Virus record (IMG/VR): IMGVR_UViG_3300032331_003181
Location: 1 to 21,419 of that record
Direction: 5' to 3' (one strand)
Origin: a virus
DNA: 21,419 nucleotides
The notes beneath the pieces are model-generated. The model was not told where the DNA came from and did no database searches. It worked only from the letters and a program-made list of their open reading frames with translations. A program made the translations under genes and the position numbers. Position 1 is the stretch's first letter. Each line of letters begins with the position of its first letter. Below, piece after piece: positions 2,879 to 13,660 of this stretch.

Positions 2879-2894
2879 GTGTTTATTGATAGCT
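2879..2894 (+). CDS. Major capsid protein, exon 1 (first 5 codons plus one base)
   Basis: GTG at 2879 has GGAGG at 2864-2868 (10 nt spacing), the strong ribosome site expected for a capsid gene. The frame stops after five codons unless the intron 2895-3720 is removed. Splicing after T2894 joins the last base to AC at 3721-3722 and gives MFIDS-Y-FPKILGAELYRP in one open frame. The exon ends in T, as group I introns require at position -1. The exact start codon is an inference from the ribosome site and the frame. Confidence 0.75.
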
Positions 2895-3471
2895 AGTTCA
2901 GATCCTGGTAGGTATTTCCTTTCAAGATTTGGTAAATAGCTCCGTGATTGCAATTAAACTTTTCGGCAATTTTTCGATAAGAAAGACCAGCCTCTTTTAA
3001 AGATTTGATTTTAATCACGTCGTCCGAAGAAAACTTTCTCAAAGAGTTTTTCGGCCTTCCTTTACTGGCAAAACCATTGTTTTTGTAACAACCGTTTTTC
3101 CAAGCCCTTGTTAGATTTTCTTGTTTGGTAACGATTTCAAGATTATCAAGTTGATTATTCCTCTTGTTATTATCTTTGTGATCGACTTGAAGGGAGAAGT
3201 TACTGGTTCCATGGGAACGCAGATCCAATCCCAAAAAAGCCACAGCCATCAAGACATGAAGATGAAAACGTTTCCTCTTCCCATCTACAAGAATTGAAAC
3301 TCGGTTATAAACACTGGTTGTACTGATGGACAGCTCTCGAAAATATTCTTGATTATCGGGATCAAGACGTTTCTCAAAAGCCTTACCTTCTTCAGTTAAG
3401 TAAAGATTACCAAATCCGGGAACAAGCTTTGGTTCCATGTTGTTCATGAACAAGTTTCCAAAGCATAGCAT
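2893..3471 (-). CDS. HNH homing endonuclease encoded antisense inside the capsid-gene intron
   Basis: A 192-residue protein. The HNH core at residues 96-114 reads 'VDHKDNNKRNNQLDNLEIV' (His98, Asn105/106, Asn110), the standard phage HNH arrangement. Residues ~146-188 form a helix-turn-helix ('SYRKIAEKFNCNHGAIYQIL') suited to recognising the target site. The N-terminus resembles NUMOD4-like segments of such enzymes, but weakly. Such proteins nick or cut intron-lacking alleles to spread their host element. It is unusual in lying on the strand opposite to the intron, and its stop codon (CTA on the plus strand, 2893-2895) straddles the exon 1/intron boundary. Translation may begin at Met1, Met9 or Met12. 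No promoter was identified with confidence. Confidence 0.9.
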   Translation of the reverse strand: MLCFGNLFMNNMEPKLVPGFGNLYLTEEGKAFEKRLDPDNQEYFRELSISTTSVYNRVSILVDGKRKRFHLHVLMAVAFLGLDLRSHGTSNFSLQVDHKDNNKRNNQLDNLEIVTKQENLTRAWKNGCYKNNGFASKGRPKNSLRKFSSDDVIKIKSLKEAGLSYRKIAEKFNCNHGAIYQILKGNTYQDLN

Positions 3472-3720
3472 GCCTCAACTGAACGCTCAACGTTGTCACC
3501 TCACCGAGTAATCGATGAGTGCAAACTGGATGAATTCAGGGAAGCCCTAACGTCAAGCCGAGGGTAATCCTGAGCCAAGCCAATCAAGAACGTGATTGGA
3601 AGGTGCAGAGACTACTGGGTGTAACACGATCTTGTTACGTAATACCAGAATTAGCGTCCGGCATCCCACAGGGATGAAGAGATAGTCCACCCCTCTAAGA
3701 AACTAGAGACCAGGAGAACG
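2895..3720 (+). ncRNA. Group I intron (subgroup IA-like) interrupting the major capsid gene
   Basis: The 3' quarter (3479-3720) folds as a canonical group I core: P2 near 3500-3519; P3 CTGGAT 3526-3531 with GTCCGG 3656-3661; P4 TCAGG 3536-3540 with CCTGA 3569-3573; P5 CCCT 3545-3548 with AGGG 3561-3564; P6a CCAATCA 3580-3586 with TGATTGG 3593-3599; P7 GACTA 3610-3614 with TAGTC 3683-3687; P8 CATCCC 3662-3667 with GGGATG 3671-3676; P9 CTCTA 3693-3697 with TAGAG 3704-3708. A nested hairpin (3615-3648) between P7 and P3 fits P7.1 of subgroup IA, as in T4 td. The intron ends in G3720. GTTCAG 2896-2901 pairs perfectly with CTGAAC 3479-3484, closing a loop that contains the endonuclease gene. The exact P1/guide pairing with exon 1 is not fully resolved. 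Confidence 0.9.
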
Positions 3721-4868
3721 ACTTTCCAAAGATTTTAGGTGCGGAACTTTATCGTCCCCACCCTGCGTACATCGCTGAGATGGCTGTGGAGCCCGTGGTT
3801 GTCCACGACTTCACACGTCAGCCTGGTCAAACTGTTCAGTTAGACCGGTATAAGTTCTGGGGTAGCCCTGGTACTAAGGACAGCCGTGAGCGTATTGCTG
3901 ATCAAACGATTGGTACCGCTAACGCCCGTAACATCACCAAAGAAAAAGTTCTGGTGGTGCTTAAGGAGTACACGGGTCCTGCGGATCCGGGCGATCCGAC
4001 TCAGCCCAGTACATTCAAGATTGCTCGCGAAACTTTGGTTACCGCCCAGCGCATGCTGCTGGACACCGGCAACCTGAATATGTTCCACCAGTCGATCGGT
4101 AGTCTGACGCTGCTTGATGACTATCGCCGGTGGCGTGACCGCGTCTTTATTGATGAACTGTCCAAAACTGAAGCAAACGGCCTGGCTTCTACCACTCAAG
4201 GCGGTTATTTCTTCCCTGGCAGTAAAGTCAAAGATGCTTCTGGTCGTATTTCTTACACCAGCACTGAGTACGCCGCTGACCTGCAGCAGTTCCAGGTGCG
4301 TACCGACCTTCTGAACGTTGTTAAGGACTTACGCAAGCGTAACGTCCCCACCTACGCTGATGGTCTGTATCGTTGCATCTGCGATCCTACGTTCATGATG
4401 CACCTGCGTCGTGACCCTGACTTCCGTGAGATCGCCCGCTACGCTGGTAATCCTGGCCAAGGCATGTACATGGGCAACCCCATGCTGCCTAACAATGCCA
4501 GCTTCTTCCAAGGTCCTCAGGCAGGCCAAGCTTACTTCCTGGCTGGTGAACCTGTTATGCCTACTGGCGTGCAGTTTGAAGGCGTTAAGTTCTTCGAATC
4601 CACCAACTTCCCGACCAAAAACACCACTAGCTCTTTTGACGGCGGTAGCACATTTGCTTCACGTGAAGTTTCCCAAGGTTACTTCTTTGGTCCTCAAGCT
4701 GTTGGTGTTGGTATCGGTGGCCCGAATGCCCAGGTGCTTATCAACAACAATGATGATTTCAGCCGTTTTATCATTCTTATCTGGCAACTGTACGCCGGTT
4801 TTGAAATCCTAAACAAGGATTTTGTAACCACCGCGTTTAGCTTTGTGCAAGATGACGGTAACATCTGA
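3721..4868 (+). CDS. Major capsid protein, exon 2
   Basis: With exon 1 this gives a protein of about 387 residues, a normal size for an HK97-fold capsid subunit, which forms the icosahedral shell. The frame is open from the splice site through FPKILGAELYRPHPAYIAEM; the internal ATG at 3780 has no ribosome site and would drop this conserved-looking N-terminal arm. Later parts include a long charged N-arm ('TRQPGQTVQLDRYKFWGSPG'), a helix-rich middle and a C-terminal aromatic stretch ('RFIILIWQLYAGFEILN'). The call rests on its place after portal and scaffold, its size and the strong upstream ribosome site; I cannot show homology without a search. T-ending codons such as GGT and CGT are frequent, as expected for a highly expressed gene. 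Confidence 0.8.
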
Positions 4869-5748: not shown

Positions 5749-6159
5749 ATGCTTTACCAGCACAAAAAAACTGGCGCTCGCGTCAAGGTTGTAAGTGAAC
5801 TTGATAATGGCGATTGGTTCATGGTCGAAGATCAGGACGGTCGCCTTTACACCGCTTACAAATCTGAACTTATCCCGGATGAAGAGGCTACCAAAAAAGT
5901 AAAAACTCTTCAAGTCAAGGATAAGGCGGCCAAAGAGGACCCACGGGATTTCCCCCCTGATCACCGTTTAAATGTCAATTCCGCTACCGCACAAATGCTT
6001 GCGGATCACATTAAGGGAATTGGTCTTAAAACAGCACGTGAGATTAAAGATCTTCAGATGTCTCTGTCGGGTGAAAGATTCAATAATCTTGAACAGCTGA
6101 AGCAAATCAAGCGTGTTGATTGGGAGTCCGTACTTGCTGCTGATTTAATTCGCGTATAA
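5749..6159 (+). CDS. Helix-hairpin-helix (ComEA-like) protein, possibly virion DNA-binding
   Basis: A 136-residue protein in two parts. Residues 1-45 form an SH3-like beta segment ('GARVKVVSELDNGDWFMVED'). Residues ~75-136 resemble ComEA-type tandem helix-hairpin-helix motifs: 'LNVNSATAQMLADHIKGIGL' contains the NVNxAxxxxL entry and the IKGIGLKTA hairpin, and 'FNNLEQLKQIKRVDWESV' gives the second helix pair. These motifs bind DNA backbone without sequence preference. In a structural-gene block it might contact packaged DNA or the portal region, which is inference. The gene ends shortly before a strong terminator. Confidence 0.6.
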   Translation: MLYQHKKTGARVKVVSELDNGDWFMVEDQDGRLYTAYKSELIPDEEATKKVKTLQVKDKAAKEDPRDFPPDHRLNVNSATAQMLADHIKGIGLKTAREIKDLQMSLSGERFNNLEQLKQIKRVDWESVLAADLIRV

Positions 6160-7003: not shown

Positions 7004-7465
7004 GTGCAGTTAAGCGACTACGACAAAAGTAGAGTTCGTTACCACCTCGGTTACTTTACTGTTTCTGTTCCGGCTGGCGATTACGCCCGCCTGGAAGAAG
7101 CAATGAATACCGTGCCGGATTCGTACTTCTACGACAAGCTCGCTATTCAGTTGGGTCGTTGTGACACAGCTGAAAAGAAAACTGAAGTCGCAACTTCTCC
7201 TTCCACGCGTCTCGAAAGCATTGCTGGTGACGTTGATCGTACCATTAGATCCAGCAATGCCAAAGAAGCCTTAAAGGTTTGGGATGAGATTTATCTCTAC
7301 GAAACAAACCGTTTAGCCGGCATCCTTTACGTTCCAAACTACAAGGATCCGTTCCAGGCCAGATACCGTTACGAACGCTCTGGTGCTGAATTCATCCAGG
7401 CATTACCTGGACCTGCCGATGTTTCCGTGGGAACCCGCATATACCTCCATGAAATATGGCGATAA
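7004..7465 (+). CDS. Small virion-type protein whose 3' end exists in two versions
   Basis: A 153-residue protein starting with GTG, without a Shine-Dalgarno. I do not recognise the family. It is rich in Tyr, Arg and Asp ('YHLGYFTVSVPAGDYARLEE', 'KVWDEIYLYETNRLAGILY') and looks like a compact soluble structural protein. Its last residues, 'VSVGTRIYLHEIWR', recur as 'VAVGSRIYLHEVWR' immediately after the HNH gene downstream (8037-8081). This suggests the endonuclease inserted near the end of this gene and that a replacement 3' end came with it. The divergent TATAAT-containing spacer at 6965-7003 probably drives it. Function unknown; location suggests a head-completion, connector or adaptor protein. 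Confidence 0.75.
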   Translation: MQLSDYDKSRVRYHLGYFTVSVPAGDYARLEEAMNTVPDSYFYDKLAIQLGRCDTAEKKTEVATSPSTRLESIAGDVDRTIRSSNAKEALKVWDEIYLYETNRLAGILYVPNYKDPFQARYRYERSGAEFIQALPGPADVSVGTRIYLHEIWR

Positions 7466-7466
7466 T

Positions 7467-7504
7467 TTAATCCGTGTATGCTAGCATACTGATACACGCA
7501 TTAA
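7467..7504. repeat. Inverted repeat in front of the HNH/AP2 endonuclease gene
   Basis: Arms TTAATCCGTGTAT (7467-7479) and ATACACGCATTAA (7492-7504) match at 12 of 13 positions. Nested within is a perfect 14-bp palindrome, GTATGCTAGCATAC (7476-7489). The outer repeat ends 4 nt before the ATG at 7509. It may be an operator, a terminator for the upstream gene, or the boundary of the inserted module. Confidence 0.6.
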
Positions 7505-7508
7505 TCCA

Positions 7509-8024
7509 ATGGTAGCGCCTTGCCCACTGCCCGAAGTTGAAGAGTTAAAAAAATACTACAAATATGTACCAGAAACAGGTGAGTTGTTTTTAATAAAGGC
7601 ACGTTGCAAAGCTGACAAGAAAAAAGTTGGCAAACCAATTGGCTCCCTTGGCGGCCCAGCAAGGCGTAAAACATGGACAATAAAACACCAAGGGAAAAGT
7701 TATTACGTTAGTCGTATTGCGTGGTTTCTGATGACGGGCAGCGATCCAGGTGTTTTGTTAGTTGAACATAAAAACCGGAACGCTCAAGATAATCGCTGGG
7801 AAAATTTAAGATTAGCAAGTGAAGCAGAAAACAATTACAACAAAATCTTTGTTGGATATAGCAAGAGAAAGGATAATGGACTTTATCGTGTGCGCGTTAC
7901 TTTGGGCGGAACGCGTATTACTGTAGGTAATTTTAAAAATGAAAACGACGCCAAAAAGGCTGCTCTCGACGCACAAAAGCTTTTTTACAAAGAATTTGCG
8001 TGTCTTGATTTAGAATCGGATTAA
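7509..8024 (+). CDS. HNH homing endonuclease with C-terminal AP2-like DNA-binding domain (free-standing)
   Basis: A 171-residue protein. The HNH core spans residues 85-102: 'VEHKNRNAQDNRWENLRL' (His87, Asn95, Asn99). Residues ~117-160 fit an AP2-type domain ('YSKRKDNGLYRVRVTLGG', 'RITVGNFKNENDAKKAA'), common in phage HNH enzymes for target recognition. Such enzymes cut alleles lacking the insertion so that repair copies the element across. Only ~45 nt of spacer flanks the gene, too little for a ribozyme, so this is not an intron. Directly after its stop codon comes a second, divergent copy of the 3' end of the gene upstream, which points to insertion into that gene. The start has no Shine-Dalgarno and abuts an inverted repeat. 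Confidence 0.88.
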   Translation: MVAPCPLPEVEELKKYYKYVPETGELFLIKARCKADKKKVGKPIGSLGGPARRKTWTIKHQGKSYYVSRIAWFLMTGSDPGVLLVEHKNRNAQDNRWENLRLASEAENNYNKIFVGYSKRKDNGLYRVRVTLGGTRITVGNFKNENDAKKAALDAQKLFYKEFACLDLESD

Positions 8025-8081
8025 CAGGCACGGCCCGTCGCAGTTGGTTCCCGTATTTATTTACATGAGGTTTGGAGGTAA
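8025..8081 (+). pseudogene. Residual or recoded 3' end of the gene at 7004-7465
   Basis: Read from 8025 in frame with the following TAA (8079-8081) it gives QARPVAVGSRIYLHEVWR, matching the C-terminus of the 7004 gene at 11 of the last 15 residues, including VG, RIYLHE and WR. At DNA level the last 45 nt, stop included, match at only about 29 positions, with most third positions changed. It has no start of its own. Its last codons, TGG AGG TAA, also form the GGAGGTAA ribosome site of the gene at 8084, which may be why it is retained. Confidence 0.75.
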
Positions 8082-8083
8082 AG

Positions 8084-9121
8084 ATGGCGTCTTATTCTGA
8101 ACAACAACGCGCTCAGGCAAAACAGCGCCGGGCCGCTGATCAGGCGCAAGTACAGAAACGTCTGCAAGCCGGTCGCGGAATTGGCTTGTATTCTGCAAAT
8201 CCCTTAGAAGCGGCTGTACAAGGAATTGGTTCTTTTTTCGGCATTACAAAACCGCCGACAGCTTTTGCAACTCAAATGCAAGGCAAGAATCAGTTGGTCG
8301 TTCCTGGGGGATGGAATGATCGCTCAAATATGCCCGGCAATGTAAACGTTGTAGGACGCACCTGGGATTTAGCGCAGCAGGGGGCTAATGCTGTATACAT
8401 TCCCCGTGGCGAAACCACACGATTTAATACTGTTGTTGGAAGACCTACATCTGCGCCACCCGCACCGGACTTATCGCCTCCCCCTGGCTACCCCTCAGCA
8501 GCAGCAGAACGTGATTATCAACAGAAAGTTTCTCGTGTTGCCCAGCTAACCGCTCAAGATCCAGAACTTAAGCGTTACGAAGACGCTCGCCAAAAGGCAA
8601 AACTTGCAGGCCCTGGTTCTGCTGCCGAACAATCTGCAGAAGATCTTGGGATGCAGATTTGGGCAAAAAAATATGGCAAACCAGGAGATCTTGCGTCACG
8701 CGTTAAGCCCGGTCAGGCTGGTTACGATGCCATCCAACGTACTTTTGGCGCGGGTCAGATGGGTTCACCGTTGAACTTACCGTTTGACACCAGCTCCCCC
8801 CTTGGAACTACGCCCCCTATTTCGCCTGCTTCTTATGATGCTGGCAAGGTTGCCCAAGGATTGGGTCTTTCCACTGTACCGAGGAATGCCTTTGCTGGTG
8901 CCTCTGCAGCTCCTTATGCAGGCTTCAGTCAGGGCCCCACACTTCAAAGCGCCCCCCTGGGCTTCCCCTCGGAAATGCCCAGTACGTCATATGAAGGGGT
9001 AACAGGTATTCAACCCTTTGGTCAAACAACTTTTCAAAACTTCACTCCTGACGAAAAGGCCCGGCAATTTGCTGAAATGTTTAAAAAGGGTTTAATAGGC
9101 CAAGGTACATCAAACGAATAA
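8084..9121 (+). CDS. Unrecognised virion-type protein, Pro/Ala/Gln-rich
   Basis: ATG 8084 follows a strong GGAGG ribosome site, so this start is preferred over the upstream TTG at 8072. The protein has 345 residues. It starts with a basic, Gln-rich helix ('SEQQRAQAKQRRAADQAQ', residues 3-20), has a central helical part around residues 140-190, and low-complexity Pro/Ser/Gly stretches around residues 119-140 and 235-290. The C-terminus is charged and amphipathic ('DEKARQFAEMFKKGLIGQG'). No family or catalytic motif was recognised. Its composition resembles internal head or ejected proteins of podovirus-like phages, an inference only. Confidence 0.7.
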   Translation: MASYSEQQRAQAKQRRAADQAQVQKRLQAGRGIGLYSANPLEAAVQGIGSFFGITKPPTAFATQMQGKNQLVVPGGWNDRSNMPGNVNVVGRTWDLAQQGANAVYIPRGETTRFNTVVGRPTSAPPAPDLSPPPGYPSAAAERDYQQKVSRVAQLTAQDPELKRYEDARQKAKLAGPGSAAEQSAEDLGMQIWAKKYGKPGDLASRVKPGQAGYDAIQRTFGAGQMGSPLNLPFDTSSPLGTTPPISPASYDAGKVAQGLGLSTVPRNAFAGASAAPYAGFSQGPTLQSAPLGFPSEMPSTSYEGVTGIQPFGQTTFQNFTPDEKARQFAEMFKKGLIGQGTSNE

Positions 9122-13288: not shown

Positions 13289-13660
13289 ATGTTCAACTGT
13301 GAGCAGGAACCCCTTTCCCTTCTCCTTGAATTAACTCCTAAATTGGCCAAGAAACGTTACCGTCAATCCATATACGATGCCTGGGACCACAAATGTGGCT
13401 ATTGCGAGGACCAAGCTACATCCCTGGACCACATTATCCCAAGGTTCCGTTCTGGTTCTAGCAATCGGAACAACCTTCTGCCTTGTTGCAAAAGATGTAA
13501 TGCAAACAAAGCTAGTTCAAAAATGGAAGAATGGTATCCACAACAGACGTACTACACCGAAGTAAGGATGAACAGGATTGAGGCCTGGATACACCAAGAA
13601 ATTATCGACCTGTTTACTTATAATATTGAGACGGTACCAGATACATTTGCTGCTGGATAA
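13289..13660 (+). CDS. HNH endonuclease, zinc-ribbon McrA/Cas9-like subtype
   Basis: A 123-residue protein with two CxxC pairs (C36-C39 and C67-C70) around the HNH core: 'LDHIIPRFRSGSSNRNNLLP' has His48 and Asn62, and 'CKRCNANKAS' follows. The zinc-bound form differs from the two other HNH enzymes in this window, so all three arrived independently. It starts after a TAGAAT hexamer (13261-13266, 22 nt upstream) and its stop overlaps the next start (TAATG at 13658-13662). A free-standing homing endonuclease is most likely; a DNA-processing enzyme of the phage is an alternative. Confidence 0.85.
   Translation: MFNCEQEPLSLLLELTPKLAKKRYRQSIYDAWDHKCGYCEDQATSLDHIIPRFRSGSSNRNNLLPCCKRCNANKASSKMEEWYPQQTYYTEVRMNRIEAWIHQEIIDLFTYNIETVPDTFAAG

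Follow-up and report, generated by a model that had tools for sequence, protein, structure and literature searches.

The gene that begins at position 7004 of a virus sequence of 21,419 bases (an IMG/VR virus record, the whole of which we call the window) has very probably been invaded at its 3' end by a mobile homing unit of ~0.6 kb, in which a replacement gene end and a spacer precede an HNH endonuclease gene. Relative to empty alleles of the same gene the unit is an insertion, every carrier that can be read far enough has a doubled gene end, the replacement end and the nuclease are linked in their inheritance, and the end left downstream is a relic of the recipient. Site-specific cleavage, homing and immunity of the carrier allele are what this arrangement, read from sequence, suggests.

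A doubled gene end around an HNH gene

The window belongs to the S-EIV1-like cyanophages. Its 7004 protein shares 86% identity with one from Synechococcus phage S-EIV1 and matches PHROG_29158 (function unknown); its structure model, with a pLDDT of 40, was too low for use. Beyond the HNH stop codon (8022-8024) there is a headless frame that ends VAVGSRIYLHEVWR, with its stop at 8079-8081 (Table 1).

Table 1. Coordinates of the doubled gene end and of related features (window positions unless a locus is given; L numbers designate the loci compared)
Feature	Position	Strand	Length or basis
Target gene (7004 ORF), GTG start	7004-7465	+	462 nt
Recipient (native) body of target gene, CDS nt 1-416	7004..7419	+	L008 comparison, S-EIV1 homologue, PHROG match
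Replacement 3' end brought by the element, ending VSVGTRIYLHEIWR + stop	7420..7465	+	Mismatch run; HNH phylogeny
Spacer with conserved inverted repeat, arms 7466-7479 and 7492-7505	7466..7508	+	Alignment, 10 sequences
HNH endonuclease with AP2-like C-terminal part, presumed homing endonuclease	7509..8024	+	Pfam, PHROG
Relic: leftover native 3' end, native CDS nt 420-462, headless	8039..8081	+	L005 comparison
GGAGG inside relic, likely ribosome site for next gene	8074..8078	+	Sequence
Downstream gene; homologue adjoins native gene end in L005 and L017	8084..9121	+	
Helix-hairpin-helix gene; the window's copy is empty, with its native end	5749..6159	+	
Tail-type doubled end of 5749 homologue	L006:2195-3160, L016:2249-3215 and relatives		Antisense HNH relative

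The preliminary description had presented this frame as a divergent second copy of the gene's 3' end, and its coordinates and peptides were right: the two ends align with a BLOSUM62 score of 68, which was reached by none of 100 and none of 300 shuffled C-termini (P = 0.0033). Their last 42 nt are 64% identical, and of the 9 codons that keep their residue and have a synonym, 8 are changed, which agrees with the claim that about two thirds of the bases match and that third positions have mostly changed. That the new end is synonymous and keeps the protein intact was borne out only in part, since the protein is nearly the same while 3 of the 13 residues differ (10 agree). The V that opens the downstream copy belongs to the junction, where the native codon is ACC (T); homology to HNH-free relatives on the downstream side begins at 8039. 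Translation of the relic by readthrough of the HNH stop was considered and set aside: in the window the relic is in frame with that stop, but in L016 and L020, inspected by eye, further stops or a frame change lie between.

The HNH protein matches Pfam HNH_3 (5e-12) and the HNH endonuclease family PHROG_99 (1e-44), and so has a nuclease domain of the homing type, as in free-standing phage homing endonucleases. Pfam AP2 is matched by five of eight HNH family members (best 3.4e-4), the window's own protein having no AP2 match at E ≤ 1. Its structure model (pLDDT 74) gave no PDB match in Foldseek at E 0.001 or better; a weak hit was to the AP2 domain of Arabidopsis TEM1 (E 0.5, probability 0.99, 37 columns). 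The spacer shows no Shine–Dalgarno sequence by eye. Its inverted repeat is present in the window's HNH subfamily, is absent by eye from the L055 and L062 types, and could be an operator, an extended -10 or a promoter as well as a hairpin. For the hairpin, in which 85.5% of cells are paired, covariation did not exceed that of column shuffles (two pairs changed on both sides, a level reached by 248 of 500 shuffles); we therefore make no claim of a conserved RNA and dropped that candidate.

Empty alleles were sought among relatives of the 7004 protein from IMG/VR (best 80 of at least 595). As the preliminary description had predicted for HNH-free relatives, the gene in L005 and L017 has only the downstream version of the end, directly joined to the homologue of the 8084 gene (tblastn, 88% over residues 1-338 in both). 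Between the window and these two loci, identity is 97% in the gene body, 98% in the relic and 99% in the first 80 nt downstream, compared with 62-64% in the replacement end. The relic is identical to the L005 native end at 42 of 43 nt, with homology running from CDS nt 420 through the stop, and the following 300 nt match at 298. Upstream, HNH-free L008 differs from the window at 2 positions across CDS nt 1-416 and at 19 across nt 417-462. With the insert, the allele is 616 nt longer than when empty.

Three other pairs of carrier and empty allele (L062/L002, L105/L139 and L114/L185) repeat the pattern, with 98-99% identity in the body, 100% in the first 80 nt downstream and 50-71% in the replacement end. 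Here the relics match the partner's native end at only 81-88%, either because they have decayed or because the partner carries a different allele. Empty alleles of the kind expected for a free-standing phage homing endonuclease are thus present in L005, L017, L139 and L185. The element has entered the gene at two points. Divergence sets in at nt 417 in the window, L105 and L084, and at nt 396 in L062 and L114, where the relic begins at about nt 407.

Carriers, empty variants and the inheritance of the new end

A search with the HNH, together with an HNH-family alignment search, gave 25 loci in the wider search, 24 of which sit behind the 7004 gene, the remaining one (L110) being cut off upstream. 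Removal of duplicates (gene plus 600 nt downstream identical) left 129 variants, 18 with a family HNH or its remnant and 111 without; the 18 are distinct sequences rather than 18 independent insertions, and most contigs are fragments. The window itself (L091) and L090 and L110, in which the upstream gene is missing, stand outside these counts, although L090 does show the relic. A second C-terminus lies downstream in all 17 HNH-bearing variants readable past the HNH (scores 30-68), the contig of the eighteenth (L103) ending before the relic region. Among HNH-free variants, none of the 94 with at least 700 nt downstream has a doubled end (best score 27); the other 17, with less than 700 nt, fell outside this test. 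The preliminary description had named two findings that would speak against it, namely HNH-free relatives with both copies and a downstream copy unrelated to homologues of the gene; the former were absent from these 94 variants, and the downstream copy is the native end. In L116 most of the HNH has been deleted and both ends are retained. Seven family HNH proteins are 47-88% identical to that of the window, and the doubled-end layout is therefore probably old.

The insert might instead be a group I or other intron, in which case the gene body would be spliced to the downstream end, and the upstream one would be just intron sequence read through. Removal of ~0.6 kb would likewise leave the protein intact, and a group I intron does occur elsewhere in the window. 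Yet no Rfam family was found up to E 1 in 7300-8200, whereas the capsid-gene intron scores 88 bits at its own position, so that the insert shows no catalytic core of a group I intron; beyond the HNH and the two ends just ~57 nt remain (a 43-nt spacer and a 14-nt joint); and in 18 of 18 variants the upstream end reads as a regular protein terminus. We regard splicing as a most improbable explanation. An intein is ruled out by the stop codon at 7465, which precedes the HNH gene and separates the parts, and the HNH has a start and a stop of its own. The earlier characterization of the insertion as neither intron nor intein thus stood.

HNH protein distance was compared with the distance of gene segments in 16 variants (L116 excluded). 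The correlation was r = 0.82 with gene nt 391-420, 0.87 with nt 421-450 and 0.59 with the last 12 nt, compared with 0.17 for nt 1-390 (P = 0.05; 3 of 13 30-nt bins with P < 0.05) and 0.09 for the relic (P = 0.23). It is the gene's last 72 bases that track the HNH phylogeny. Since the gene end follows the HNH and the relic does not, the replacement end is, as far as sequence comparison tells, one mobile unit with the HNH, and the leftover end is the recipient's own. This linked inheritance is the sole trace of preferential inheritance here.

We considered whether the HNH could instead be a passenger, the divergent end having come by ordinary recombination or tandem duplication and the HNH having landed between the ends by chance or illegitimate recombination, with no homing. 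The start of the downstream gene varies widely among these phages, and exchange at this gene boundary is therefore frequent; moreover, the cleavage is a predicted one, and native alleles with similar half-ends occur. A passenger does not, however, account for the lack of any doubled end without HNH or remnant in the 94 testable HNH-free variants, for a phylogeny common to the end and the HNH and not to the relic, or for recurrence of the pattern with nucleases at three other gene ends (below). We therefore hold it to be unlikely. As for the downstream gene, its first part varies widely among the related phages L001-L080 and its middle is often related.

A further account accepts homing and takes the replacement end to be the donor lineage's end, diverged by drift, the difference mattering, if at all, against recombination between direct repeats. 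To this we give not far short of an even chance. The synonymy of replacement ends is incomplete, two native ends can be equally different, the ends of L062, L078, L113/L130 and L114 have the L127 native end as their nearest (74-81%), and the accessible parts of PMC3630166 give a foreign-end reading for Allomyces and Glomus. On the other side, each replacement end reaches only 71-86% with its closest native counterpart. Moreover, in the pooled data the replacement end and its own relic differ at 100 of 132 same-residue degenerate codons (76%), which exceeds both the median for native ends against each other (43%) and the largest native-native value in the gene body (67%). The ends are short and native pairs reach 86% at the 95th percentile and up to 100%, so that 76% is not extreme for single pairs. 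Since the replacement end seems to be inherited with the HNH, the word "recoded" describes an outcome and not a process that has been shown. The replacement end of the homing unit may plausibly destroy the cleavage site.

The relics look fresh, 13 of 17 keeping every residue of the closest native end. GGAGG stands at the stop in 13 of 17 relics, compared with 1 of 17 replacement ends and 53 of 111 native ends. The suggestion that the old end was kept as the ribosome site of the next gene thus has a basis, but it can be at most part of the explanation.

Mosaic ends, the first part like replacement ends and the last part like relics, occur in 11 of the 111 HNH-free variants. They fit recombination between doubled ends, and shared allele ancestry could also yield them. 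Some HNH-free variants have a VSVGT half-end, and cuttable alleles therefore cannot be told from sequence. In an HNH-free phage (L012:4440-5200) the end resembles replacement ends (86% to that of L101), and the start of the following gene seems to lie within it.

Similar layouts at other gene ends

The preliminary description had proposed a search for other HNH genes flanked by doubled C-termini. The layout recurs at the 3' end of the 5749 gene and, as a doubled head, at the 5' end of the 7004 gene; evidence from a second phage group is thinner. One phage group thus has three gene ends with the layout, and a second group probably has one.

At the 5' end, the 7004 homologue of L023 (3340-4110) has been invaded by another HNH type, encoded by an antisense ORF (3469-3960). 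The leftover native head upstream, a truncated frame, is identical to L063 at 88 of 90 nt. The new head matches L063 at 65 of 90 nt, the protein being nearly unchanged, and nt 91-390 match at 28-30 of 30 nt per bin. Among 193 loci tested, head doubling was found only in the contig of L023 (the same contig as L176).

Homologues of the 5749 gene have a replaced 3' end with an antisense HNH relative behind it in L001, L006, L013, L016 (with copies), L023 and L063. Between L006 and L005, 368 of 375 nt are identical in the body, 24 of 36 in the end, and 70 of 70 in the relic and the bases that follow. All six carriers among 121 distinct testable variants have scores of 39-42, against a maximum of 23 in the 115 others; L114, whose contig begins inside the gene, also has the antisense HNH relative at this site and was left out of the count. 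In L009 the gene end matches the L006 replacement end at 27 of 27 nt and then the L005 native end at 9 of 9, a mosaic like those of the 7004 gene. The nuclease at this site has a weak Pfam HNH match in L023 (HNH_5, 0.017, below the cut-off) and none in L016; several of its phage relatives are annotated as HNH endonucleases.

The second group is represented by Xanthomonas phage L13.2 (L206:2498-3014), in which an HNH gene lies at the 5' end of the RNA polymerase gene. Its HNH ORF opens with the polymerase start of relatives (29 of 30 nt in three HNH-free relatives and 25 of 30 in a fourth), and the new head of the polymerase gene matches all four at 18 of 30 nt; the case is based on 30 nt of one genome. 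Other HNH proteins start with a peptide similar to that of the L13.2 HNH ORF, which may have aided the fusion.

L13.2 was the one match when 39 other phage HNH loci, 37 of them testable, were scanned at both ends. A further 88 HNH loci (87 testable) produced no convincing case: of 8 nominal matches (P ≤ 0.02), inspection put L285 and L263 down to chance, and L256, L258, L269, L277, L293 and L294 were judged unconvincing from their printed peptides only. One match in 37 and no convincing case in 87 make the layout a minority habit, as seen by a scan that detects only peptide-similar ends near the HNH and whose queries were all HNHs related to that of the window. The surveyed loci include copies, both of each other and of phages scanned earlier; L225 and L241, from a set of 23 loci, were short and left unscanned, and L226, L237 and one further locus had no testable flank. 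In the doubled-end scan, g4904 and g10305 gave matches at 8 and 3 loci, respectively, to short common motifs ~700 nt on.

Proposed mechanism and relation to known systems

In the mechanism that we propose, the HNH would cut HNH-free alleles in the junction region (CDS nt ~417-420 for the window's subfamily), and repair from an HNH-bearing genome would copy the replacement end and the HNH into the cut allele. The interrupted frame would be completed by the unit's own end, with near-identical amino acids in other codons; since the unit supplies its own gene end, splicing would be unneeded. The recipient's cut-off end would remain downstream as the right-hand homology arm, often serving as the ribosome site of the next gene. 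Because the sequence directly downstream varies widely among phages, the gene's last bases are often the only close common right flank, and a role as homology arm would explain the retained end more fully, and more simply, than a ribosome site. Divergence of the two ends would keep the joint from being recut and lower deletion by recombination between repeats.

More tentatively, and with somewhat less than an even chance of being right, we propose that phages repeatedly harbour such "self-mending" homing endonuclease genes as a strategy, that the nucleases, of two or more HNH types and in either orientation (sense or antisense), enter either end of a conserved virus gene, and that their loss leaves mosaics. 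If so, each homing event would swap the terminal codons and leave the recipient's old end as a scar, and gene ends would cycle through invasion, replacement and loss, the doubled and mosaic ends being a readable record of intronless homing. Besides introns, inteins and intergenic placement, the unit shows a route by which a selfish nuclease gene sits inside a coding sequence while the gene stays unbroken. The phage case offers many natural empty, filled, decayed and mosaic alleles for comparison; cleavage site, immunity and co-transfer can be tested directly on short synthetic DNAs, and doubled gene ends are a simple signature for finding further cases. There is also a warning here, since the first or last codons of a phage gene may differ in history from the remaining gene.

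The unit is a phage variant of a strategy known from fungal mitochondria. As far as the accessible parts of PMC3630166 describe them, mORFs with a carboxy-terminal duplication occur in atp6 of Allomyces macrogynus and in atp6, atp9, cox2 and nad3 of Glomus sp., where, as here, an endonuclease ORF lies behind a replaced gene 3' end with the native end downstream. In the atp6 mORF described there, the leftover native end is 91.2% identical in nucleotides to that of a relative, and the two ends are 63.5% identical in nucleotides and 91% in amino acids. The phage unit has the same order of replacement end, nuclease ORF and native end in all 17 readable carriers, and here too the native end is the one closer to ORF-less relatives (against L005, 98% for the relic and 64% for the replacement end). 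According to the same parts of that source, mORFs are mitochondrial, encode LAGLIDADG or GIY-YIG enzymes and are in some cases in phase with the gene, whereas the phage unit has an HNH-AP2 enzyme in a separate ORF, replaced ends of ~46-67 nt, and visible empty, filled, decayed and mosaic alleles. Its nuclease being of HNH type and in a cyanophage, we say that it functions like an mORF and do not class it as one. The Tremella form is similar in that the 5' part of the insert is a second version of the next host-gene exon, able to replace it, and differs in being mitochondrial and described as introns, some unspliced by cDNA (PMC7315562, parts available).

Free-standing homing endonucleases of the T4 type share with the phage unit a gene outside introns, a phage genome, presence/absence polymorphism and transfer with flanks, in the parts of PMC2988022 and PMC3984707 consulted; unlike the unit, those reviewed in the former are intergenic. 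The strings "duplicat" and "synonymous" are absent from the main texts of both. Skunavirus HNH endonucleases of the I-HmuI-like type resemble it in having particular insertion locations in a phage genus and in marker exclusion (PMC12724721, in part). The available parts of PMC12724721, PMC3984707 and PMC8861465 describe no doubled or replaced gene ends, and no phage report of a nuclease with a doubled gene end was found in the open-access full texts as far as these could be seen. For elements of this sort that carry coding sequences, PMC3630166 refers to Eddy's 1992 dissertation on T7-like phages, and an earlier phage description, e.g., in Eddy 1992, Paquin 1994 or Belle 2002, is possible.

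The window holds two more HNH ORFs and a group I intron. The intron (RF00028, 88 bits, 3466-3709, plus strand) lies in a region of about 2886-3717 and seems to split the major capsid protein gene a few codons past the start; an HNH ORF with a weak HTH match (2893-3471) lies in this region on the opposite strand. The start of the S-EIV1 capsid gene is apparently uninterrupted, and L020 carries the intron too. The third HNH ORF of the window (13289-13660) stands directly before the gene at 13660, and S-EIV1 has an annotated HNH nuclease in a similar arrangement.
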